Shown here in pieces: positions 750-42,741 of a stretch of 43,090 nucleotides of DNA; the first letter of the stretch is position 1; every line of letters begins with the position of its first letter. The translations under genes were made by a program, and so were the position numbers. A model generated the notes under the pieces. The model did not search any database. It saw nothing but the letters and a program-made list of their open reading frames with translations, and was not told where the DNA came from. This stretch comes from Actinomycetota bacterium (GTDB lineage Bacteria; Actinomycetota; Geothermincolia; Geothermincolales; RBG-13-55-18). Location: assembly GCA_030019255.1 (NCBI GenBank), contig JASEFK010000008.1, positions 1 to 43,090 of the forward strand. The letters are read 5' to 3'.

Positions 750-2822
750 CTAGCGCTGAACTTGCTGCAGTATTGGATAATCCGGATTTGCGGCTTGCCT
801 CTCCTTGTATTTTGCCCATGCCGGATGGGGGGTACCATCATACCTGAAAAGACCAAAATAGGTCTTATCCCATGACCTTCCCGGGGGTTCGTCCATGTCC
901 TTGTAAACCCATATCTTTTTGCAGCCCGCCGCCCACAGGCCATCAAGCCCTTTGCTGCTCAGTGCTTCAGCCTGCCCGGTTTCGCTATAGGCTTGAGGAG
1001 CATTTTCCGCATAATGGGGCCAGCCTATCTCGGTCACTACCAATTCTTTCTTCAACCCCATTCCTTGTAAAAAAGCGTTCAATTTTCCATAAAATGCGCC
1101 CCACAGTTCCGGCAGGCCGTAAGGATGAACGGCGATCATGTCGCAATAGGTCGCCAAACCCAACCAGGTCTTTAAGTTAAAAGCCTTTTCGCATGACGGG
1201 GCCAGAAGTTCCGAGGCGTTCCTGAAGCAGATATCCTGCGCGAAAAAGTCCAGGTTCACCTGCGTCTGGACCTGACCCTCGTTTTTCAGGACAAGGTACT
1301 CTCGAACGGAATAATCCTCCGCCGAAACCGGTAATCTCCATTCCGTCGCCGGAAATTCCATGCCCTCAAACCTGGCTTGGCCATACCACCGGCCGGGAAA
1401 GGAAAAAACCAGATTCCTTTGAGCCAGGATGGGCATGTCCGCAATTGCTTCTATGGATAGTTCGCTCTCCGAAAGTGCGCTCTCATACAATCGACGGATG
1501 TCCCGCTCCAACGCCAATACATGATAGTTGAAGGCTTCCAACGAAAGCGTGGAAGTTACCTCTTCTTTTGTCTCGTTACGGTATCTTATCCTTACGTCGG
1601 CCGTTTCCCGGTTCGGGTTATACAGTAAAAGCTCTTCCCGTAGCTCATAGTCACTACCGCTTCCTTCCAGACTAATGACCTCTGCACTTTCATCATCCAT
1701 CATTTCCGCATGACCCCTTGTGCCATCCTCAAGATATACATGCAGGCAGGCGGATACCGGGTTTTCACTGAAGACCTTAATGATTTCGCCGCAAGGTTCA
1801 CCAATCTTTTCTCCGTCCCCATCAGGCAGGCAAACAGTGGACAGTGAAGCACGAGCCACGGGTAACTCCAAGAAAATCCCATTGTCCGAGCCCTCCCCCA
1901 GGCTCACGGATACCCATGTGTCTTCCTCGGATTGGTTCGTCAGGACAAGAAAGGTCTTTTTTCGGCTCGAAACGCCGGGCGCGAGGAAGTACCAACTGTC
2001 ACTTCCTTCGTCCCCTTCGTGGGTGTCCTGATAACATGCTTGCCCGTAGGTGAACCCCACCACCCTTTCCGCCGTGATTGGGCTTTCGGATGAAAGCCGA
2101 ACGCTCACGCCCCTGCCAGGCAATTCATAATCCCCGAAGAGATAGCCGTACAGCTCCCCCCCTTCGTCGGGGTTCTCGATGTAGCTGTTGATCAGGGCAC
2201 CGCAGATGACCTTGGCCGTGGGATCCGCTTTCTTTATCGCTGCGTATGCAAGACGGATCAGCTGTAGGTAATCTTTCTCCACCTGGCCGCCAAAATGGAA
2301 AACGTTGAAGCGGCGGAACGCCTCGGAATCCCTATCCCAACCCGGTTCGTTCCATATCTCGTAGAAATCGACCACCTCGCCGTACCTCTCCGCCAAGCTC
2401 ATGCAGAAATCGTACCAGTCCCGCAGATTTTTCGGAGGAGCTTTCCCGGCGAACTCGCCGTATTTCGGATCCCTGGCCCAGACCGGGACCGGTCCGCCAA
2501 CCAGGAAGAGGATGCTCCGCGCCCCGTCGTTTAGAGCGGCGTTCACCTGCCGATCATAATACGACCAGTCGAATTTTCCCCGCGCCGGCTGTACCTTTTC
2601 CCAGCGCACCTCCATCTTGTAATGCCTTATCCAGCTCCTCTCCGACCGCGGAACCTTGCGGCACAACCCATTGGCGTAATTCGGCACATCCAGCCCCAGG
2701 ATGATCCAATCGGACACATCCCTTTCCGCCGCAACCCTTCCGGTACAAAGGACTACCCACAAGATACAAATGAAGGAGGTGAAGACCATGAGAGTGGACC
2801 AAATGAATTTATGCGTCCTCAT
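750..2822 (-). CDS. Exported glycosidase-like TIM barrel interrupted by divergent WYFAEG-type repeats
   Basis: 690 aa with an N-terminal signal segment (residues 1-31, hydrophobic 8-26). The N-terminal half of a clan-A-type glycoside hydrolase barrel follows (about 36-235), with the acid/base motif F-Y-E-I-W-N-E-P at 153-160 (Glu159). The C-terminal half (about 570-675) holds the probable nucleophile in V-V-T-E-I-G-W-P (Glu598). Between them, about 240-565, lie roughly three divergent copies of the beta-rich repeat seen in the proteins at 13052, 20030 and 40237; traces are DSWYFLAPG, EELLLYNPN and REYLVLKNE. It probably cleaves or remodels an extracellular glycan; the substrate is unknown. 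It lies 4 nt after the upstream GT-C-like gene and is surely co-transcribed with it. AGAGGTGAT upstream of the ATG serves as ribosome site. It is a paralogue of the 13052-15235 gene with the same insertion position. Confidence 0.75.
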   Translation of the reverse strand: MRTHKFIWSTLMVFTSFICILWVVLCTGRVAAERDVSDWIILGLDVPNYANGLCRKVPRSERSWIRHYKMEVRWEKVQPARGKFDWSYYDRQVNAALNDGARSILFLVGGPVPVWARDPKYGEFAGKAPPKNLRDWYDFCMSLAERYGEVVDFYEIWNEPGWDRDSEAFRRFNVFHFGGQVEKDYLQLIRLAYAAIKKADPTAKVICGALINSYIENPDEGGELYGYLFGDYELPGRGVSVRLSSESPITAERVVGFTYGQACYQDTHEGDEGSDSWYFLAPGVSSRKKTFLVLTNQSEEDTWVSVSLGEGSDNGIFLELPVARASLSTVCLPDGDGEKIGEPCGEIIKVFSENPVSACLHVYLEDGTRGHAEMMDDESAEVISLEGSGSDYELREELLLYNPNRETADVRIRYRNETKEEVTSTLSLEAFNYHVLALERDIRRLYESALSESELSIEAIADMPILAQRNLVFSFPGRWYGQARFEGMEFPATEWRLPVSAEDYSVREYLVLKNEGQVQTQVNLDFFAQDICFRNASELLAPSCEKAFNLKTWLGLATYCDMIAVHPYGLPELWGAFYGKLNAFLQGMGLKKELVVTEIGWPHYAENAPQAYSETGQAEALSSKGLDGLWAAGCKKIWVYKDMDEPPGRSWDKTYFGLFRYDGTPHPAWAKYKERQAANPDYPILQQVQR

Positions 2823-13051: not shown

Positions 13052-15235
13052 TCAGGGGAGGGAAGCGGGCAGGTTGGGATAGTCGGGGAAATAGGTCTGC
13101 TGCCATTGCTTGTACATATTCCACGCCAGGCAGGGAGTGCCGTCGTACCTGAAGAGCCCGCAGTAAATGTGGTCCCAGGAGGTACCGGGGTCCTCATCCA
13201 TCATCTGGTATATCCATATCTTGCGGCATCCGTTCTGGAGGAGAGAGTTGACGCCCACCGGCCCGACGGCCTCCGCCTGCTGCTGCTCATTGAAGGAGCC
13301 GGGCTCGGTATCGCTGTAATGCGGCCATCCGGCCTCGCTGACCACCACCTCCTTGGTGACCCCCCTTGAGCGCAATGCATTAACTACGTTGGCGTAATAC
13401 CTCCCCCAGTCGGGAGGGAGCTTGTAGGGGTGGGCGGTGACCATGTCGCAGCTCCCCCGGAATCCGATGACATGGTTCAGGTACAAGGTGGCCCTCGAGT
13501 GGGGGGACAGGGTAAGGGTGCGCTTCAACGTCTCCCCCTTGCTCATCATGAAGTTTACGGTCACCTGTACTGCATCTCCCTGGGGATTCTGGAGGCACAG
13601 GTATTCTTCTATGGAAAATCCCGTGCACCCTTCCGCGAAATACCATTGGGGCTGAGGGGAAAGAGTGCCCATGGTAACGTGACCTCCCCTTCTGCTCCCC
13701 GCGTAGTTGAAGTACATGGGGCGCTCGGCCACGATGGGCACCTCGGAGTGGACCTTGATGGACACGTCGCCGTGGGGGTTGTTGTGGACCCCGATGCCCT
13801 CGGCGTCCCCGTGCACGGCCACCGTCCGGCGGGAACGCGGACCTACCTCCACGGTCTTCTGCACCGTCTGGCCGTCGCCGCAGTAGTATTCGATGATCAC
13901 CTGGGCTTTCCGGGTGGGGTCCGGGTTCTGGAGGCAGAGGTAGGTGTTGAACCCGGGACGGGTGCAGCCCTCCGCGAAGTACCAGACGCTGGCGGGGGCG
14001 GTGGCGCCCAGGGAGTCGTGGCCTCCCGCCCACATCCCCGCGTAGTTGAAGTACATGGGGCGCTCGGCCACGATGGGCACCTCGGAGTGGACCTTGATGG
14101 ACACGTCGCCGTGGGGGTTGTTGTGGACCCCGATGCCCTCGGCGTCCCCGTGCACGGCCACCGTCCGGCGGGAACGCGGACCTACCTCCACGGTCTTCTG
14201 CACCGTCTGGCCGTCGCCGCAGTAGTATTCGATGATCACCTGGGCTTTCCGGGTGGGGTCCGGGTTCTGGAGGCAGAGGTAGGTGTTGAACCCGGGACGG
14301 GTGCAGCCCTCCGCGAAGTACCAGACGCTGGCGGGGGCGGTGGCGCCCAGGGAGTCGTGGCCGTCATCCCAGGAGTAGTTGTAATTGAAGTACATGGGGC
14401 GCTCGGCCACGATGGGCTGCTCTGCATCCACCACCACCGAGACATCCTGTCCGGGACGGTTGACGTCGTCGAAGAGAAGGGCGTAGAGGTCGGTCCCCTT
14501 GTTCGGATCGGGATCGTTGACGCACTGCAGGTCCCCGCAGACCACGATGCCCGAAGGATCCTTTTCCTTTATGGCCTGGTAACCCAGCTGGAGGAGGGGC
14601 AGGTAGTCGGTCTCCACCTGGCCCCCGAAATGATAGACGCCATAGTTTCGCCAGGCGCTGGAATCCCTGTCCCACCCGGGCTCGTTCCATATCTCGTAGA
14701 AATCCACCACCGAGCCGTAACGCTCGGCCACCCGGGAGCAGAAATCGTACCAGTCGCGGAGGTCGCGGGGCGGGGCCTTGTCCGCGAAGCTCCCATAGGA
14801 TGGATCCCGCGCCCATTCCGGCGTGGCGGCGGTGAGCAGGAGCATGAGGGAGTCCGTGCCGTCAGCCAGGCGGGCATTTATTTCCTGGTCGAAGTAGGCC
14901 CAGTTGAACTCGTCCTGCCTGGGCTCCGCCTTGGCCCAGGTCATGAGCACCTTGTGGTGGCGCACCCATTGCCTCTCGGAATGGGGGATGCGGGGGCTGA
15001 TGCGGCCCACGTAATCCCTGGCGTCCAGGCCCAGGATGACCCAGTCGGCCACGTTGCGCTCGCTGGCGGCCACCGCCGCGCCGCCGTCGCTTATGGTTAC
15101 CAGAAGGAGATTGGACGCGGACGCCAACAGGAAAACGGTGCACAGAACAATGGATGCCAGGAGGGCGGAAGACCTGTTTCCCATCCCCCTTATCATCCTC
15201 ACGCTCTTTTTTCTTGTTCCCGTTTCCGGGGACAT
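13052..15235 (-). CDS. Exported glycosidase-like TIM barrel with an inserted array of WYFAEG repeats
   Basis: About 727 aa. A hydrophobic signal segment (about 22-47) is followed by a clan-A-like barrel half with FYEIWNEPGW (acid/base Glu185) and a C-terminal half with V-V-V-S-E-A-G-W-P (nucleophile Glu634). The array of about 110-residue repeats lies between them, about residues 250-575. It begins mid-repeat at DVSVVVDAEQPIVAERPMYF, runs through two nearly identical full copies (WYFAEGCTRPGF...AERPMYFNY), and ends at SRATLYLNHVIG just before the barrel resumes. At DNA level 13696-14023 equals 14035-14362. It probably acts on a cell-surface or extracellular glycan. No sortase, SLH or other wall-anchor motif is visible. 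The start is uncertain: ATGs at 15235, 15196 and 15184 are possible, and AGGGAG favours 15235. Paralogue of 750-2822. Confidence 0.78.
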   Translation of the reverse strand: MSPETGTRKKSVRMIRGMGNRSSALLASIVLCTVFLLASASNLLLVTISDGGAAVAASERNVADWVILGLDARDYVGRISPRIPHSERQWVRHHKVLMTWAKAEPRQDEFNWAYFDQEINARLADGTDSLMLLLTAATPEWARDPSYGSFADKAPPRDLRDWYDFCSRVAERYGSVVDFYEIWNEPGWDRDSSAWRNYGVYHFGGQVETDYLPLLQLGYQAIKEKDPSGIVVCGDLQCVNDPDPNKGTDLYALLFDDVNRPGQDVSVVVDAEQPIVAERPMYFNYNYSWDDGHDSLGATAPASVWYFAEGCTRPGFNTYLCLQNPDPTRKAQVIIEYYCGDGQTVQKTVEVGPRSRRTVAVHGDAEGIGVHNNPHGDVSIKVHSEVPIVAERPMYFNYAGMWAGGHDSLGATAPASVWYFAEGCTRPGFNTYLCLQNPDPTRKAQVIIEYYCGDGQTVQKTVEVGPRSRRTVAVHGDAEGIGVHNNPHGDVSIKVHSEVPIVAERPMYFNYAGSRRGGHVTMGTLSPQPQWYFAEGCTGFSIEEYLCLQNPQGDAVQVTVNFMMSKGETLKRTLTLSPHSRATLYLNHVIGFRGSCDMVTAHPYKLPPDWGRYYANVVNALRSRGVTKEVVVSEAGWPHYSDTEPGSFNEQQQAEAVGPVGVNSLLQNGCRKIWIYQMMDEDPGTSWDHIYCGLFRYDGTPCLAWNMYKQWQQTYFPDYPNLPASLP
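13696..14362. repeat. Perfect direct repeat, about 328 bp, period 339 bp, inside the glycosidase-like gene
   Basis: Bases 13696-14023 and 14035-14362 are identical by eye over about 328 bp, joined by an 11-bp variable segment, giving a 113-codon period. The repeat encodes one whole module copy. Such identity in coding DNA points to a recent duplication or ongoing gene conversion, and the tract could expand or contract by recombination. Confidence 0.9.
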
Positions 15236-15666
15236 TTTCCGATTCTCCCTTCCCTTCACCTCGAGCATCACCCATTCTCCGGTTTCACTTCCCGCCACCA
15301 CCACGGGAGGGGGGTCCCTGGATCACTTCCCGCCCTGCTTGTCTCCTCCCTTTAACAATCTATCCTCCGACCCGACATCCATCCCCTTCCACGCCTTCTC
15401 TCGACCATTAGTTCCTCCGGCGCGGCACCCCGACCCGCGCGCCGGGACCTCGATACTGCGATCTATTATAAACCCATGACAGGACATTACAGGGCAATCC
15501 TTGTTAAGTTAGACGCACGAAGCCCATTCTTGGAATCGTGATTCCAGGCAAAAGCCTCGGATTGGAAGAAGAACTCATGAAAAATCCGACTAACGAAACT
15601 CTTTCTCCGGGCCAGGAGCAGGTCATCCCGCGAGGGGAGGCGGCAGCTCGGGAGTCTCAACGGGAC
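15236..15666. other. Intergenic region upstream of the glycosidase-like gene
   Basis: 431 bp between two minus-strand genes. The glycosidase frame stays open to 15304. The rest is C-rich with no convincing gene. The only recognisable signal is a TATAAT on the minus strand at 15465-15470. The segment 15470-15600 is AT-richer than the surroundings. Confidence 0.4.
15465..15470 (-). promoter_or_regulatory. Possible -10 element upstream of the glycosidase-like gene
   Basis: The minus strand reads TTTATAATAGATC here, a consensus TATAAT. It lies about 230 nt before the favoured start at 15235. A TTGCCC occurs 21 nt upstream, too far for a normal -35 spacing. Offered as a weak candidate. Confidence 0.3.
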
Positions 15667-20029: not shown

Positions 20030-22846
20030 ATGAGGTGGCCGAAAGCGGATTCAGACCTTATCCGAAGGGCAACGGCGATTCTTATCCTGGTCTTCCTGCT
20101 ACTTACCTGGCCCGCTGTCTCCTTCTCCCCCGTGCTCGAGAGCGGGGGTTGGGCGGTCGCCAATCCGCCGGGTTGGACCCAGGTCTGGGCCCTGGACACA
20201 GGGAGCATGTTCAAGCACGCCTCCCCCACCCTGGCAGATATCGACGGCGATGGGACCCAGGAGATCCTGGTGGGGAACACCAATGGCGTTTTCTACTGCC
20301 TGGACCACAACGGTAACATCCGCTGGGCCTACAACACCGGGGCCACCATCCAGTCCACCCCGCTGGCCGTGGACTGCGACGGCAACGGGACCCTGGAGAT
20401 ATTCTTCGGGAGCTACAACGGCTACGTCTACGGTCTGAACTACCTGGGTCAACCGCTTTCCCACTGGGGATGGCCCAAGTTCGCCGGCACCGCCTACGGT
20501 TACCGAGAGGTGTTTCCATCCCCTTCCAGCGGTGACCTGGACGGGGACGGTGACCTGGAAATCGTGGTGGGCAACTGGGGGACCTTCGTCACCGCCTGGC
20601 ATTACCAGGGACAGCTAATGTGGCAGTACCAGAACCATGATTCCATATGGTCCTCCCCGGCCTGTGGGGACATCGACCTAGACGGCAGGGACGAGGTGGT
20701 CATCGGCGCCGACTGCTGGAGCGGGCCCTACTGGCCGTGGCCCCGGGGCGGGCTGCTCTACGTCTTCGAGGAAAATGGGTCCATAAAGGCCGGGTTCCCC
20801 AAGACCCTCCCCCAGGTCATATGGTCCTCCCCGGCCCTCGCCGACCTGGACCGCGATGGGTTCCCGGATATCGTGGTGGGCACCGGCCTTTTCTGGCAGA
20901 ACACCAACCCGGGGCTTTCTACCTACCTCTCCTACGCGGACGGGAAACACGTATACGCCTTTAATTACCGTGGCGAGAACCTGCCCGGCTGGCCGGTGAA
21001 CACGGGGGACAACGTCTTCTCCTCCCCGGCGGTGGCCGACCTGGACGGGGATGGTTATTTCGAGGTGGCCTGCGCATCCATGGATTCATGGGTCTACTGT
21101 TGGGAACATGACGGCAGGGAGAAGTGGAAGCAGCGCCTCTTCGCCGTACAGAAGATGGGCTCCCCGGCCATAGCCGACATCGACGGCGACGGGGACATGG
21201 AGGTCCTCATGGGGGAGGGACAGCACCTGGCGGCCTATGATCCCTCGGGACAGAGGATACTGGAGGTGCACACCGGGCAGAACGTCTTCAACTGCCCGGC
21301 GGTGGGGGACCTGGACGCCGACGGCCTGACCGACGTGGTGGTGGCCAACGGCATGGATGGCGAGACGGGCAGGGTCATCCGCTACGAGGCCGGAAAGTGG
21401 AACCCTCAATTGGCGGCCTGGCCCATGTTCCGCCGCTTCCCGGATCACCGCGCCTGCTACCCCCACCAGGAGGTGCCCGACCTCTGGTCGGCCTCGGAGG
21501 TGCGCAGCCGTTCCTACCTGGCCGAAGGGTACACAGGAAACGGGTTCCAGGAGTTCGTACTTCTTATGAACCCCAACCCCGAGCCGGCTGTGGCCCAGCT
21601 GCGTTACCTCCTGGGGAGCGGCCTTTCCGTGGTCAAGGTGGTGAACGTCCCCGGGAGCTCCCGCTGCACGGTGTTGGTGAACCATTCCGTGGAGGGTCAG
21701 GACGTGAGCACGGTGATGCTCTCCGACCGGGCGGGCATCATCGCCGAACGCTCCCTTTACTTCCGTTATTCCGGAAGCCACGGGACCTGGGTCGGGGGCC
21801 ACGATGTCATGGGCACGGATACCCCGCGGCAGGAATGGTACTTCGCCGAGGGATGCACGCGGCCCGGCTTCCATACCTACCTCTGCCTGCAGAACCCGGA
21901 TCGTTCCGTGGCCGCCCCCGTGACCATCGAGTACTACTGCGGGGACGGGGCGGTCATCGTCCGGGAGGTGACCCTCCGCCCCGGTTCCCGGTTCACGGTG
22001 GCCGTGCACCAGGACGGGCTGGGCATCGGGACCCACGACGGGCCCCGGGGCGACGTTTCCATCAAGGTGACCTCCCAATTCCCCATCGTGGCCGAGCGGC
22101 CCATGTACTTCAACTATGCCGGGGTCTGGGACGGGGGCCACGACGCCATGGGGGCGGCCCAGCCCTCCCAGGAGTGGTATTTCGCCGAGGGATGTACCAG
22201 GCCCGGTTTTCACACCTACCTCTGCCTGCAGAACCCGAGGGAGGCCCCGGCGGAGGTGACCCTCGAGTACCTCTGCGGGGACGGGGCCAACATCACCCGC
22301 CGGGTCACGGTGAAGGCCCGCTCCCGCTACACGGTGGCCGTGCACGGGGACCGGGAGGGCATCGGGGTGCAGGACAGCGCCCGGGGGGACGTGTCCATCC
22401 GGGTGACCTCCGACCGTCCCATCGTGGCCGAGCGGCCCATGTACTTCAGCTACGCGGGGGCCTGGGACGGGGGGCATGACGTGACCGGCTGTACCTCGCC
22501 CTCCCCGGCCTGGGTCTTCGCCGAGGGTTGCACCCGGCCCGGCTTCAACACCTACCTCTGCCTGCAGAACCCGGGGGAGGCCCCGGCGGAGGTGACCCTC
22601 GAGTACCTCTGCGGGGACGGGGCCAACATCACCCGCCGGGTCACGGTGAAGGCCCGCTCCCGCTACACGGTGGCCGTGCACGGGGACCGGGAGGGCATCG
22701 GGGTGCAGGACAACGCCCGCGGTGACGTCTCCATCCGGGTGACTTCCGAGGTGCCCATCGTGGCCGAGCGGCCCATGTACTTCAGCTTCAATGGGAATGT
22801 GGGAGGCCACAACACCATGGGCTTCCCCGGGGAGCAGGGATACTAG
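20030..22846 (+). CDS. Exported FG-GAP/VCBS-type calcium propeller with four WYFAEG repeats
   Basis: 938 aa. An N-terminal hydrophobic segment (13-33) directs export. Residues about 50-475 form a beta propeller of eight FG-GAP-like repeats, each with a D-x-D-x-D-G-type calcium loop (about residues 70, 115, 169, 214, 272, 337, 383 and 427; for example DLDGDGDLE), often preceded by SSPA. Four module copies follow, starting at about 494, 603, 716 and 828, with Y-L/F-A-E-G-x-T, L-C-L-Q-N-P, S-R-x-T-V-A-V-H and A-E-R-P-M-Y-F. The last copy ends with G-G-H-N-T-M-G and a short tail. Probably an adhesive or structural surface protein. GGGAGG nine to ten bases before the ATG supports the start. It converges with the CoA-ligase gene, leaving only 22 bp between stops. 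No wall-anchor signal is seen. Confidence 0.82.
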   Translation: MRWPKADSDLIRRATAILILVFLLLTWPAVSFSPVLESGGWAVANPPGWTQVWALDTGSMFKHASPTLADIDGDGTQEILVGNTNGVFYCLDHNGNIRWAYNTGATIQSTPLAVDCDGNGTLEIFFGSYNGYVYGLNYLGQPLSHWGWPKFAGTAYGYREVFPSPSSGDLDGDGDLEIVVGNWGTFVTAWHYQGQLMWQYQNHDSIWSSPACGDIDLDGRDEVVIGADCWSGPYWPWPRGGLLYVFEENGSIKAGFPKTLPQVIWSSPALADLDRDGFPDIVVGTGLFWQNTNPGLSTYLSYADGKHVYAFNYRGENLPGWPVNTGDNVFSSPAVADLDGDGYFEVACASMDSWVYCWEHDGREKWKQRLFAVQKMGSPAIADIDGDGDMEVLMGEGQHLAAYDPSGQRILEVHTGQNVFNCPAVGDLDADGLTDVVVANGMDGETGRVIRYEAGKWNPQLAAWPMFRRFPDHRACYPHQEVPDLWSASEVRSRSYLAEGYTGNGFQEFVLLMNPNPEPAVAQLRYLLGSGLSVVKVVNVPGSSRCTVLVNHSVEGQDVSTVMLSDRAGIIAERSLYFRYSGSHGTWVGGHDVMGTDTPRQEWYFAEGCTRPGFHTYLCLQNPDRSVAAPVTIEYYCGDGAVIVREVTLRPGSRFTVAVHQDGLGIGTHDGPRGDVSIKVTSQFPIVAERPMYFNYAGVWDGGHDAMGAAQPSQEWYFAEGCTRPGFHTYLCLQNPREAPAEVTLEYLCGDGANITRRVTVKARSRYTVAVHGDREGIGVQDSARGDVSIRVTSDRPIVAERPMYFSYAGAWDGGHDVTGCTSPSPAWVFAEGCTRPGFNTYLCLQNPGEAPAEVTLEYLCGDGANITRRVTVKARSRYTVAVHGDREGIGVQDNARGDVSIRVTSEVPIVAERPMYFSFNGNVGGHNTMGFPGEQGY
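22239..22712. repeat. 138-bp exact direct repeat, 336-bp period, inside the propeller gene
   Basis: Bases 22239-22376 and 22575-22712 are identical by eye and encode the central part of the third and fourth modules (from EAPAEVTLEY to GIGVQD). Flanking parts of the same modules differ, so identity is patchy, which fits gene conversion or a recent duplication followed by selection at the edges. Confidence 0.85.
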
Positions 22847-40236: not shown

Positions 40237-42741
40237 TCATGGACCGGTATAGCCTTCGGCGAAATACCAGTGCATGGAGGTGCCGGCAAGTCCCTGGGAG
40301 GCGTGGCCGCCCCTCTTCCCCCCGTAGTCGAAGTACATGGCCCGCTCCACCACCACTCCCTTTCCGTTGATCTCCTCCACCTGAACGGAGACGTCATCGG
40401 AGGGGATAAGATCGTCCACGTGCAGGGTATAGCGGGAGCGGGGGGCCAGGTCGGCGTAGACCTCCTTCTGCAGACCTCCCTGGGTAAAGAGGGAGATCCT
40501 CACCCGCGCCGCCTCTCCGAGAGGGTTGCCCACCAGTACGTACTCGTCGAACTCGCCTCCCGTGTAACCTTCCGCCAGGAACCAGCGGCTCGCCGTTTCT
40601 CGGGAACCCATGGCGCAGCTCCCGTCCTCCTTGCCGGAATAGTTGAAGTACATGGCCCGCTCCGCCACCACCGGGCGGTCGCTCTCCAGGGTTACCGCCA
40701 ACTCCGAGCGGGGGAGATAGTCGTCCACGTGGAGGGTTAGGCGTGAACCGGGGGCAACGGTCTTATTCACGGTAAGCACCTCTCCCCCGCCCTGGGGAAG
40801 CAGGTGAAAACTCAGCGTGGCCGGCTGGTCTCCAGGGTTGCCCACCAGTATCCAGGTGTCGAAATCTCCCCCAGTGTAACCCTCCGCGAAGTACCAGCGC
40901 GTGGAAAGTTCGGGAGAACCCTCCGCGGTGTGTCCCCCCTTCCTGCCCTGGCTGTCGAAGTACATGGCCCGCTCCACGGCCAGGGGGCGGTCCGAGGTCA
41001 CGGAGGTGGAAAAGGCGCAGGCGGAGAAACCCTCCTGGGCGTCCACGCTCAGGGTGACCCGGGAGGAAGCCGGAATTTCCAGGCCCAGGTTCCGGGTGTA
41101 ACCGTCTTCACGCATGAGACGGACGTCCGCATGGGCGGCTTGCGATCCCGGATTGTATAGGAGGATCCAGGTATCGAAGGCCAGGGCGGTGTACCCCTCG
41201 GCTAAATACCAATTATTGGAAAGCGAGGGGACTCCCGGGCTGCAGGAGCCGCCGTCCAGGCTCCCACGGTAGTTGAAATACATGGCCCTCTCGGCGACGA
41301 TATCCCGGTCGGCCTCCACCTGCACCGCCACCTCCTCGCCATCCAGGTGGTCGTTGACCCGTATCGTCCTGCGGGTGAAGGGGGGGAGTTCCACCGCCGC
41401 CTCCGCCGTTTTTCCGCCGCCGGTCATCCTCACCACCGCGTTGGCCGTGCTCCCGGAGGGGTTGGCCAAAAGGACGTACTCATCGAAGTTCTCCGACCGC
41501 AGGCGAACCATGGCGCTTCTCAGGCCGAGGAGGGAACGCAGTTGTTCGCCAGAGACGGTGACCCTTCCGGCGCTGCCGTTGAAGACCGCCCATCTCACCC
41601 TCCCGCTGGGGGTACGGCTGGAGAGATCAATGGAATAGAGAGTCCCCACGTAGGTACCGGAACTGGCGTTCAGCCGGGATTCTATCTCCTGACGGGACAT
41701 GGTCACCGTCCAGTGGGCGTAGGGATTGGCGGAATCCATGCAGTAGGGGTCAGGCATCCCCCTGAGGTAGGGCACGGGGCTTCCGCCCCACACGTCCTCG
41801 TTGTTGTCCGTGTGTCCCCCGCAGGAGGAGGAATAGAAACACTGGGCCACCTGTCCCTGGTAGGTGAGCACTTTCCCCGCCGTGGCGTCCACGGCCTGCA
41901 CCCACCCGCTGTCCTTCTCCTTGTCATAGCCCTGATAGTACTGGCAGTGCACCTCGTCACAGAGGTTGAAGTTGGAGGAGGCATGCTTGTTCATGAAGCG
42001 CACCGCGTAGGATCGGGCCGCTACCGCCTGGGCTCTCACCGCCTCCTTGGGCCAGCTCCCCGGCACCTCGGCCACCCCCTTCAGGTAGGTCTCGAACCAG
42101 GAGATGAGGATGGCCCGCAAGGCGTAGGGGGAACCGTACACGTTGAGTTCCAGGGGCGTGATGGCGGTCAGGTGGCTCAGGCGGCGGTTCCCGTTCTGGG
42201 GCAGGCGGAGTATGTTGCCCTCCGCCTCTCCCCTCACGTAGACGGGGTTCACGGGCCCCCCGTAGGAGGTCCCGTTGAGGAGGGAGCCGTCGGGCCGGTA
42301 GATGAGAAAACGGCCATCCGCGCTCGGCCTTATCTTCCAGGTGCTTCCCTGGCTAATCTTGCCTTCCGGTATATCCCCTCCCGGGTTGGTGAAGAGGACG
42401 AAGGAGCCACTATCCGCGGTCAGCTGTACCTCGCTCATGCCCTCAAGGAGACCCACCCGGATGGAGGAAGGGCAGGCCCAGCTGGTAACCTGCGTCCCTT
42501 GGAAATAATAGGTGAGAATCTGCTGATAGTTGAACCCCGCCGCCGCCATTCCCCGGGCCCCGTACTGGCACATGCCCACGCCGTGTCCCCAGCCTGACCC
42601 GTCGAATACGTAGGTCTCGCGCAGCGCTGACGCCCTTTCGTTGCCCATAGGAAAGATAAAAAGAGCGGCCGCGAGAACCACCGTGGCCGACGCGCCCGCA
42701 AAACGCCGGAGACGACCTGGTCGCGAACTCGTTGTTCTCAT
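40237..42741 (-). CDS. Exported SpoIID/LytB-domain protein with WYFAEG repeats
   Basis: 834 aa with a signal segment (13-32). The SpoIID/LytB domain covers about 44-412. G-S-G-W-G-H-G-V-G-M-C-Q-Y-G-A (48-62) is at its N-terminus rather than its C-terminus as in Bacillus SpoIID; this permuted order occurs in actinobacterial members. The likely catalytic Glu225 lies in V-A-E-V-P-G-S-W-P, followed by A-Q-A-V-A-A-R-S-Y-A and C-G-G-H-T (307-311). SpoIID-type enzymes are lytic transglycosylases on peptidoglycan. From about 417 comes the module array: the first copy lacks the WYFAEG strand, three fuller copies follow, and the protein ends on an isolated W-Y-F-A-E-G-Y-T-G-P. The array may anchor the enzyme or bind glycan. 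No terminal wall-sorting motif. The start has AGGAAGG about 12 nt upstream. Confidence 0.83.
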   Translation of the reverse strand: MRTTSSRPGRLRRFAGASATVVLAAALFIFPMGNERASALRETYVFDGSGWGHGVGMCQYGARGMAAAGFNYQQILTYYFQGTQVTSWACPSSIRVGLLEGMSEVQLTADSGSFVLFTNPGGDIPEGKISQGSTWKIRPSADGRFLIYRPDGSLLNGTSYGGPVNPVYVRGEAEGNILRLPQNGNRRLSHLTAITPLELNVYGSPYALRAILISWFETYLKGVAEVPGSWPKEAVRAQAVAARSYAVRFMNKHASSNFNLCDEVHCQYYQGYDKEKDSGWVQAVDATAGKVLTYQGQVAQCFYSSSCGGHTDNNEDVWGGSPVPYLRGMPDPYCMDSANPYAHWTVTMSRQEIESRLNASSGTYVGTLYSIDLSSRTPSGRVRWAVFNGSAGRVTVSGEQLRSLLGLRSAMVRLRSENFDEYVLLANPSGSTANAVVRMTGGGKTAEAAVELPPFTRRTIRVNDHLDGEEVAVQVEADRDIVAERAMYFNYRGSLDGGSCSPGVPSLSNNWYLAEGYTALAFDTWILLYNPGSQAAHADVRLMREDGYTRNLGLEIPASSRVTLSVDAQEGFSACAFSTSVTSDRPLAVERAMYFDSQGRKGGHTAEGSPELSTRWYFAEGYTGGDFDTWILVGNPGDQPATLSFHLLPQGGGEVLTVNKTVAPGSRLTLHVDDYLPRSELAVTLESDRPVVAERAMYFNYSGKEDGSCAMGSRETASRWFLAEGYTGGEFDEYVLVGNPLGEAARVRISLFTQGGLQKEVYADLAPRSRYTLHVDDLIPSDDVSVQVEEINGKGVVVERAMYFDYGGKRGGHASQGLAGTSMHWYFAEGYTGP

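Follow-up and report, generated by a model that had tools for sequence, protein, structure and literature searches.

Organization of the locus

The window (the whole stretch of DNA that was analysed, 43,090 nucleotides from an Actinomycetota bacterium) contains genes for a UDP-glucose dehydrogenase, at least nine glycosyltransferases, a Wzm/Wzt-type transporter and a SpoIID protein with a DUF5719 domain, and, judged from its sequence, is a cluster for the synthesis and export of a surface polysaccharide. It also codes for a predicted glycosidase of 750 amino acids (13052..15304, reverse strand, as are all its parts described below), starting at a GTG codon. An alternative ATG start at 15235, with the purine-rich AAGGGAGAA upstream, would give a protein of 727 amino acids. 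Residues are numbered here in the 750-residue frame, which equals the ATG-based count of an earlier, sequence-only reading plus 23 (Glu208 corresponds to 185 and Glu657 to 634). Close to the N-terminus there is a hydrophobic segment resembling a signal peptide (LLASIVLCTVFLLA...AVAA-S; residues 44-80, 15065..15175), recognized from the sequence alone.

The catalytic barrel is encoded in two parts. The first one (residues 88-282, 14459..15043), delimited by an AlphaFold model with DSSP assignment and by a profile match to PslG, extends from β1 to α5 and contains a putative acid/base residue, Glu208, in the motif YEIWNEPGWD at the end of β4 (codon 14681..14683; invariant in a 21-row alignment). 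The second one (residues 614-750, 13055..13465), delimited by the same model and by alignment, extends from β6 to α8; barrel sequence picks up at CDMVTAHPY, and the putative nucleophile, Glu657, lies on β7 in the motif SEAGWP (codon 13334..13336; invariant in a 22-row alignment). Between both parts, in the α5-β6 connection, there is an insert of 331 amino acids (residues 283-613, 13466..14458), defined by its matches to PF18986 and to half-unit HMMs and by its absence in two relatives (L053 and L055), that contains three DUF5719 units, of which one is split. The sequence-only reading, which placed the N-E-P glutamate before and the S-E-A-G-W-P glutamate after an insertion of about 325 residues, agrees with this arrangement, in which Glu208 and Glu657 flank the insert.

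Four elements follow one another inside the insert, all assigned with the half-unit HMMs: the C part (second part) of the split unit (residues 286-308, 14381..14449), a first nested unit (residues 328-421, 14042..14323), a second nested unit (residues 441-534, 13703..13984), which also appears as a TRF repeat of period 339, and the N part (first part) of the split unit (residues 554-610, 13475..13645), which matches the last N parts of its orthologues best.

A PslG-related, probably catalytic barrel

In the AlphaFold model of the protein (built with 23 aligned homologues; mean pLDDT 80.4, pTM 0.79) the eight β/α elements appear in order, β1-β5 before the insert and β6-β8 after it. PslG is the best match in the PDB both by profile (E 1.7e-8) and by fold. 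A homologue with a one-unit insert aligns with PslG in Foldseek over 454 columns (E 2.8e-13, TM 0.55-0.59), covering both flanks of the insert, with an identity of about 14-22% in the fold alignments, and both glutamates are invariant in all intact homologues. Because of the element order in the model, the PslG match on both sides of the insert and the invariance of both glutamates, the two parts are taken to be one catalytic domain of clan GH-A type, as modelled. This is also what the sequence-only reading proposed, a single clan-A-like barrel, and its opposite, two halves that do not form one barrel or motifs that belong to unrelated folds, was looked for and not found. The second barrel part, used alone as a profile against the PDB, gave no significant match.

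No curated glycoside hydrolase family of Pfam or NCBIfam matches above its cut-off: GH42 (0.003), GH5 (0.03), GH39 (0.022, in one member only) and GH10 (0.0019 at best) are all below threshold. The earlier reading suggested searching the barrel with the insertion removed; this was done with a natural homologue lacking the insert (L053), and still nothing was above the cut-off. The barrel would work like PslG, yet it is filed in no named family, and its glycosidase activity is predicted from sequence.

To our knowledge, an Asn residue ahead of the acid/base glutamate is nearly universal in clan GH-A. It is kept, as N-E-P, in the window protein and in the whole of its family (f1). In a deeper clade, families f4-f7 (L057-L069), the motif reads WQEPGWD instead of WNEPGWD, this Asn being replaced by Gln, or by Gly in L067. 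These substitutions would suit a barrel that does not catalyse in some family members and serves there as a scaffold or for glycan binding; both glutamates are nevertheless invariant throughout and the window protein and f1 conserve N-E-P, which makes this explanation improbable.

DUF5719 and the ASRT superfamily

DUF5719 (PF18986) is found three times in the insert (Pfam E 2.2e-16, 60.3 bits against a gathering cut-off of 26.2), and 21 of the 23 members of the alignment match this family (E <= 0.1). In addition, 12 of the 23 match the Pfam family ASRT (PF07100), and the relationship between DUF5719 and ASRT is also seen in profile matches to PDB entries 1nc7 and 2ii7 and in Foldseek matches to 2ii7 and 2ii8. 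The ASRT superfamily was defined by De Souza et al. (2009; PMC2739507), who described a Trp in the first strand and an Asn in the second one, predicted sugar binding, and noted dyads and tetrads, ASRT itself being a tetramer. Among 73 units from the inserts, the Trp is present at the start of strand 1 in 94% and the Asn at the end of strand 2 in 100%. The ligand-lining His of the SHEshChhN signature (of the ASRT-like subfamily) is absent, with E or N at its position, and the Cys is present in 49% of the units; other ASRT/ASRAH subfamilies also lack this His (PMC2739507). DUF5719 units thus share with the ASRT/ASRAH domains (TM1070, 1nc7; 2ii7; PF07100) sequence, fold, the strand-1 Trp, the strand-2 Asn and the tendency to form dyads and tetrads, and DUF5719, a β-sandwich domain, is a probable sugar-binding family, as far as its sequence tells. 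The copies of ASRT and DUF5719 described before are whole domains, whereas in the insert one domain is split and permuted, with the barrel between its parts. No mention of DUF5719 was found in the papers searched.

DUF5719 is also present in proteins with an ordinary arrangement, and these appended (linear) arrays were used for comparison (n=21; genome-wide L092-L111, also 20030-22846 and 40237-42741 of the window). One of them is the C-terminal tetrad of an FG-GAP propeller protein (20030..22846, forward strand), which reads N-first according to Pfam and the half-unit HMMs. Genome-wide, the carriers of appended tetrads include an amidase, an L,D-transpeptidase, a SpoIID protein, a subtilase, an M28 peptidase and phosphoesterases, and, because it is appended to such diverse exported proteins, the DUF5719 tetrad seems to be a module for the attachment of such proteins in general. 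The same genome also encodes a clan-A glycosidase unlike PslG (L108, G000:C6:26461-27996) that contains DUF5719 at its C-terminus in the ordinary arrangement.

A circularly permuted array

Separate HMMs were made for the N part (the first five strands) and the C part (the last strands) of DUF5719. With them, the inserts read C-N-C-N..., beginning with a C part in 21 of 22 cases and ending with an N part in all 22, whereas the linear arrays of the same genome have the order N-C-N-C... and none of the 21 begins with a C part (Fisher p 2e-11 against the inserts). The sole insert that is not C-first is that of L069, whose first C part is degenerate, and a paralogue in the window is partly resolved by the HMMs. 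This contrast between both kinds of arrays indicates that the array of the insert is, by its sequence order, circularly permuted, with one DUF5719 unit split around the barrel. A different division, in which each whole domain would consist of a C part and the N part that follows it, was considered and is disfavoured, given that stand-alone ASRT and 21/21 linear arrays run N then C.

The homologue L050, which carries the split unit only, was modelled with a pLDDT of 87.5 and a pTM of 0.89; the strands of both parts mostly have values of about 87-97 and there is one disordered linker (residues 221-235), as would be expected for a permuted domain predicted to fold together with the barrel. The split and the nested units also differ in their history. 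The N part of the split unit matches the last N part of the orthologues and behaves as a slow-changing orthologous element across f1. The nested units of f1 are homogenised within genomes, being similar to one another and to the appended arrays of their own genome, as expected from tandem duplication or gene conversion. In the deeper clade the four unit positions are individually conserved, with 0.64-0.73 within positions and 0.48-0.61 between them.

The linkers joining a C part to the following N part are nearly always 19 residues long, and this also holds for the additional linker required by the permutation; exactly four units are present in 16 of the 21 linear arrays and in 13 of the 22 inserts. 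One explanation is that the DUF5719 tetrad is a closed, ASRT-like ring made by a single chain with a fourth linker of equal length, that the ring was re-opened inside one unit and that the barrel was spliced there, so that the barrel is inserted into the split domain and the split domain into the barrel, at adjoining loops. The copy number varies between one and five, and a four-membered ring is therefore not obligatory; the proposal is a tentative one, for which we would give somewhat less than an even chance. If true, a whole pseudo-oligomer would have been circularly permuted in nature, with a surface-binding platform held rigidly on the back of an enzyme.

Distribution and age of the architecture

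A paralogue of 690 amino acids with the same architecture is encoded in the window (750..2822, reverse strand; insert at about 1134-2129). End-to-end alignment shows 38% identity with the glycosidase over the whole length (E 1e-160) and the same split, and its units are so degenerate that Pfam misses them. The position of the insert is shared by about 20 more homologues from other genomes, and glycosyltransferases flank most of the homologues tested. Of 31 genomes of the class that were searched, 27 contain a close relative of the first barrel part, and a phylum-wide search of 396 genomes found no close member outside the class (E gap from 1e-38 to 1e-26). Named records among the relatives belong to Candidatus Solincola, Candidatus Geothermincola and other Actinomycetota MAGs, and NCBI taxonomy places Solincola within Candidatus Geothermincolia.

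There are 22 full-length inserts, all at the same site, which vary in length by steps of about 107 residues; several other homologous loci stop at contig ends inside the array. One unit is present in L050 and L068, two in L043, three in the window protein, its paralogue, L041, L044 and L047, four in L049, L051, L052 and, with two exceptions, the deeper-branching members of the class, and five in L069. L053 and L055 have an uninterrupted barrel (...LLTDPEHRAQDWCDAFSLHPY...), and they may have lost the insert or never have had it, since the barrel tree, which lacks a settled root, fits either. At the junctions (near 14455 and 13465) the insertless relatives read HR-AQD-WCDAF, compared with NRPGQD-VSV...(insert)...CDMV in the proteins with an insert; the common R..QD could be the mark of an ancestral recombination point.

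The two nested units of the window protein share 328 identical nucleotides (an exact repeat, window 13696-14417), which, going by this identity, is a very recent duplication or gene conversion. Since an exact repeat of this length is shared by the nested units in a draft assembly, the count of three is doubtful and may be too low, with four units as a possible true number. The repeat, the draft state of the assembly and the contigs that end within the array would also suit a recent or artefactual chimera, in which a repeat gene was joined to a glycosidase gene. For the architecture this was rejected, as the junctions agree in about 20 independent genomes and in the paralogue with 38% identity; a chimera is almost certainly not the explanation, and copy number alone is left exposed to assembly error. 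As far as comparison of the homologous sequences goes, the interrupted architecture is real, old and class-wide in Candidatus Geothermincolia.

Location of the insert and proposed function

In the AlphaFold/DSSP model the insert takes the place of the α5-β6 turn, in line with the idea of the sequence-only reading that the array leaves the barrel through a loop and comes back. A (β/α)8 barrel has its α-to-β connections at the N-terminal ends of the strands and its catalytic residues at the opposite face, where β4 and β7 have their C-terminal ends. The insert, lying in such a connection, would therefore sit at the back of the barrel, on the side remote from the active site, which makes gating unlikely. 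That reading had supposed that the array could position or gate the active site: positioning, understood as anchoring, is plausible, and gating does not fit the topology. Three points described above go beyond that reading: the circular permutation of the array, the class-wide occurrence of the insert and the second copy of the architecture at 750-2822.

We favour, as a rather probable function, that of an exported PslG-related endo-glycosidase of clan GH-A, probably retaining, with a permuted DUF5719 sugar-binding module in the α5-β6 connection that holds it in the surface glycan. The enzyme, encoded in a surface-polysaccharide cluster, would bear this ASRT-like module, predicted to bind sugar, in such a way that the second part of the split unit leaves the barrel and its first part returns to it, the other units being accommodated in the linker of the split unit. 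The units would form a fused pseudo-tetramer, like the tetramer of ASRT, on the back of the barrel. The array would then keep the enzyme attached to the cell-surface glycan, and the cleft would meanwhile cut or trim the polysaccharide made by the neighbouring glycosyltransferases. PslG, an endo-glycosidase of Pseudomonas aeruginosa, is encoded in an exopolysaccharide cluster and is thought to trim the polysaccharide or to set its chain length; by analogy, a polysaccharide-trimming or chain-length-setting role is the most likely one for the enzyme described here.

Other roles of the array can be envisaged. It could fold over the cleft, controlling access of the substrate and shaping the active site, as might be thought from its location between both catalytic glutamates in the sequence and from the tandem CBM inserts of GH10 xylanases, which are in a loop of the catalytic face and help on insoluble substrates (PMC7848910). 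The insert is, however, in the α5-β6 connection, an α-to-β connection on the opposite face, and the number of units goes from zero to five among relatives with unchanged catalytic motifs, so that we regard such a role as very improbable. An anchor in the cell-surface glycan is more likely than an active-site gate. A larger, although still minor, probability is given to an array that would be a mere spacer or stalk keeping the barrel off the wall, in which binding has been lost and conservation reflects folding. The variation in steps of about 107 residues, the degenerate units of the paralogue and the homogenised internal units are all compatible with a spacer; the predominance of exact tetrads (16 of 21 linear arrays), the individual conservation of the unit positions in the four-unit clade and the return of both ends of the array to the barrel, which makes for a poor stalk, argue against it, and we consider it unlikely.

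Relation to known systems and biological meaning

The PslG structures (PDB 4zn2, 5bx9 and 9g17) have the same clan-A type barrel, an N-E-P acid/base motif and a polysaccharide-cluster setting, but not the DUF5719 insert. The Xyn10C-like GH10 xylanases of Bacteroidetes (Pm25, BACINT_04215) are a direct precedent for the interruption of a glycosidase barrel, with one to three CBMs placed in their β3-α3 loop (PMC7848910). These enzymes are likewise interrupted by β-sandwich sugar-binding modules, family-wide and with intact catalytic glutamates. Their insert is on the catalytic face and precedes both glutamates, whereas here it is in α5-β6 and lies between them; moreover, their modules belong to CBM4/CBM22, no permutation has been described for them, and they are encoded in a locus for the uptake of secreted polysaccharide and not in a synthesis cluster. 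The present enzyme differs from these xylanases in the barrel face used, in the family of the inserted domains, in their permutation and in its biosynthetic setting. In phospholipase C-gamma, a TIM barrel is interrupted by a multi-domain array flanked by the halves of a split PH domain, and the insert is autoinhibitory. That array also begins and ends with parts of one split domain, although its domains are unrelated to those described here and it functions in eukaryotic signalling.

The relatives form a well-sampled natural series, with 0, 1, 2, 3, 4 or 5 units in one fixed loop, in which it can be followed how a catalytic barrel tolerates, and makes use of, a domain array of large size. Thanks to the permuted insert, the idea of a pseudo-tetramer could be tested with a single structure. 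The DUF5719 tetrads of the exported proteins of Candidatus Geothermincolia, comparable in their logic to the SLH or CWB2 triplets, are a candidate for a new cell-surface attachment system.
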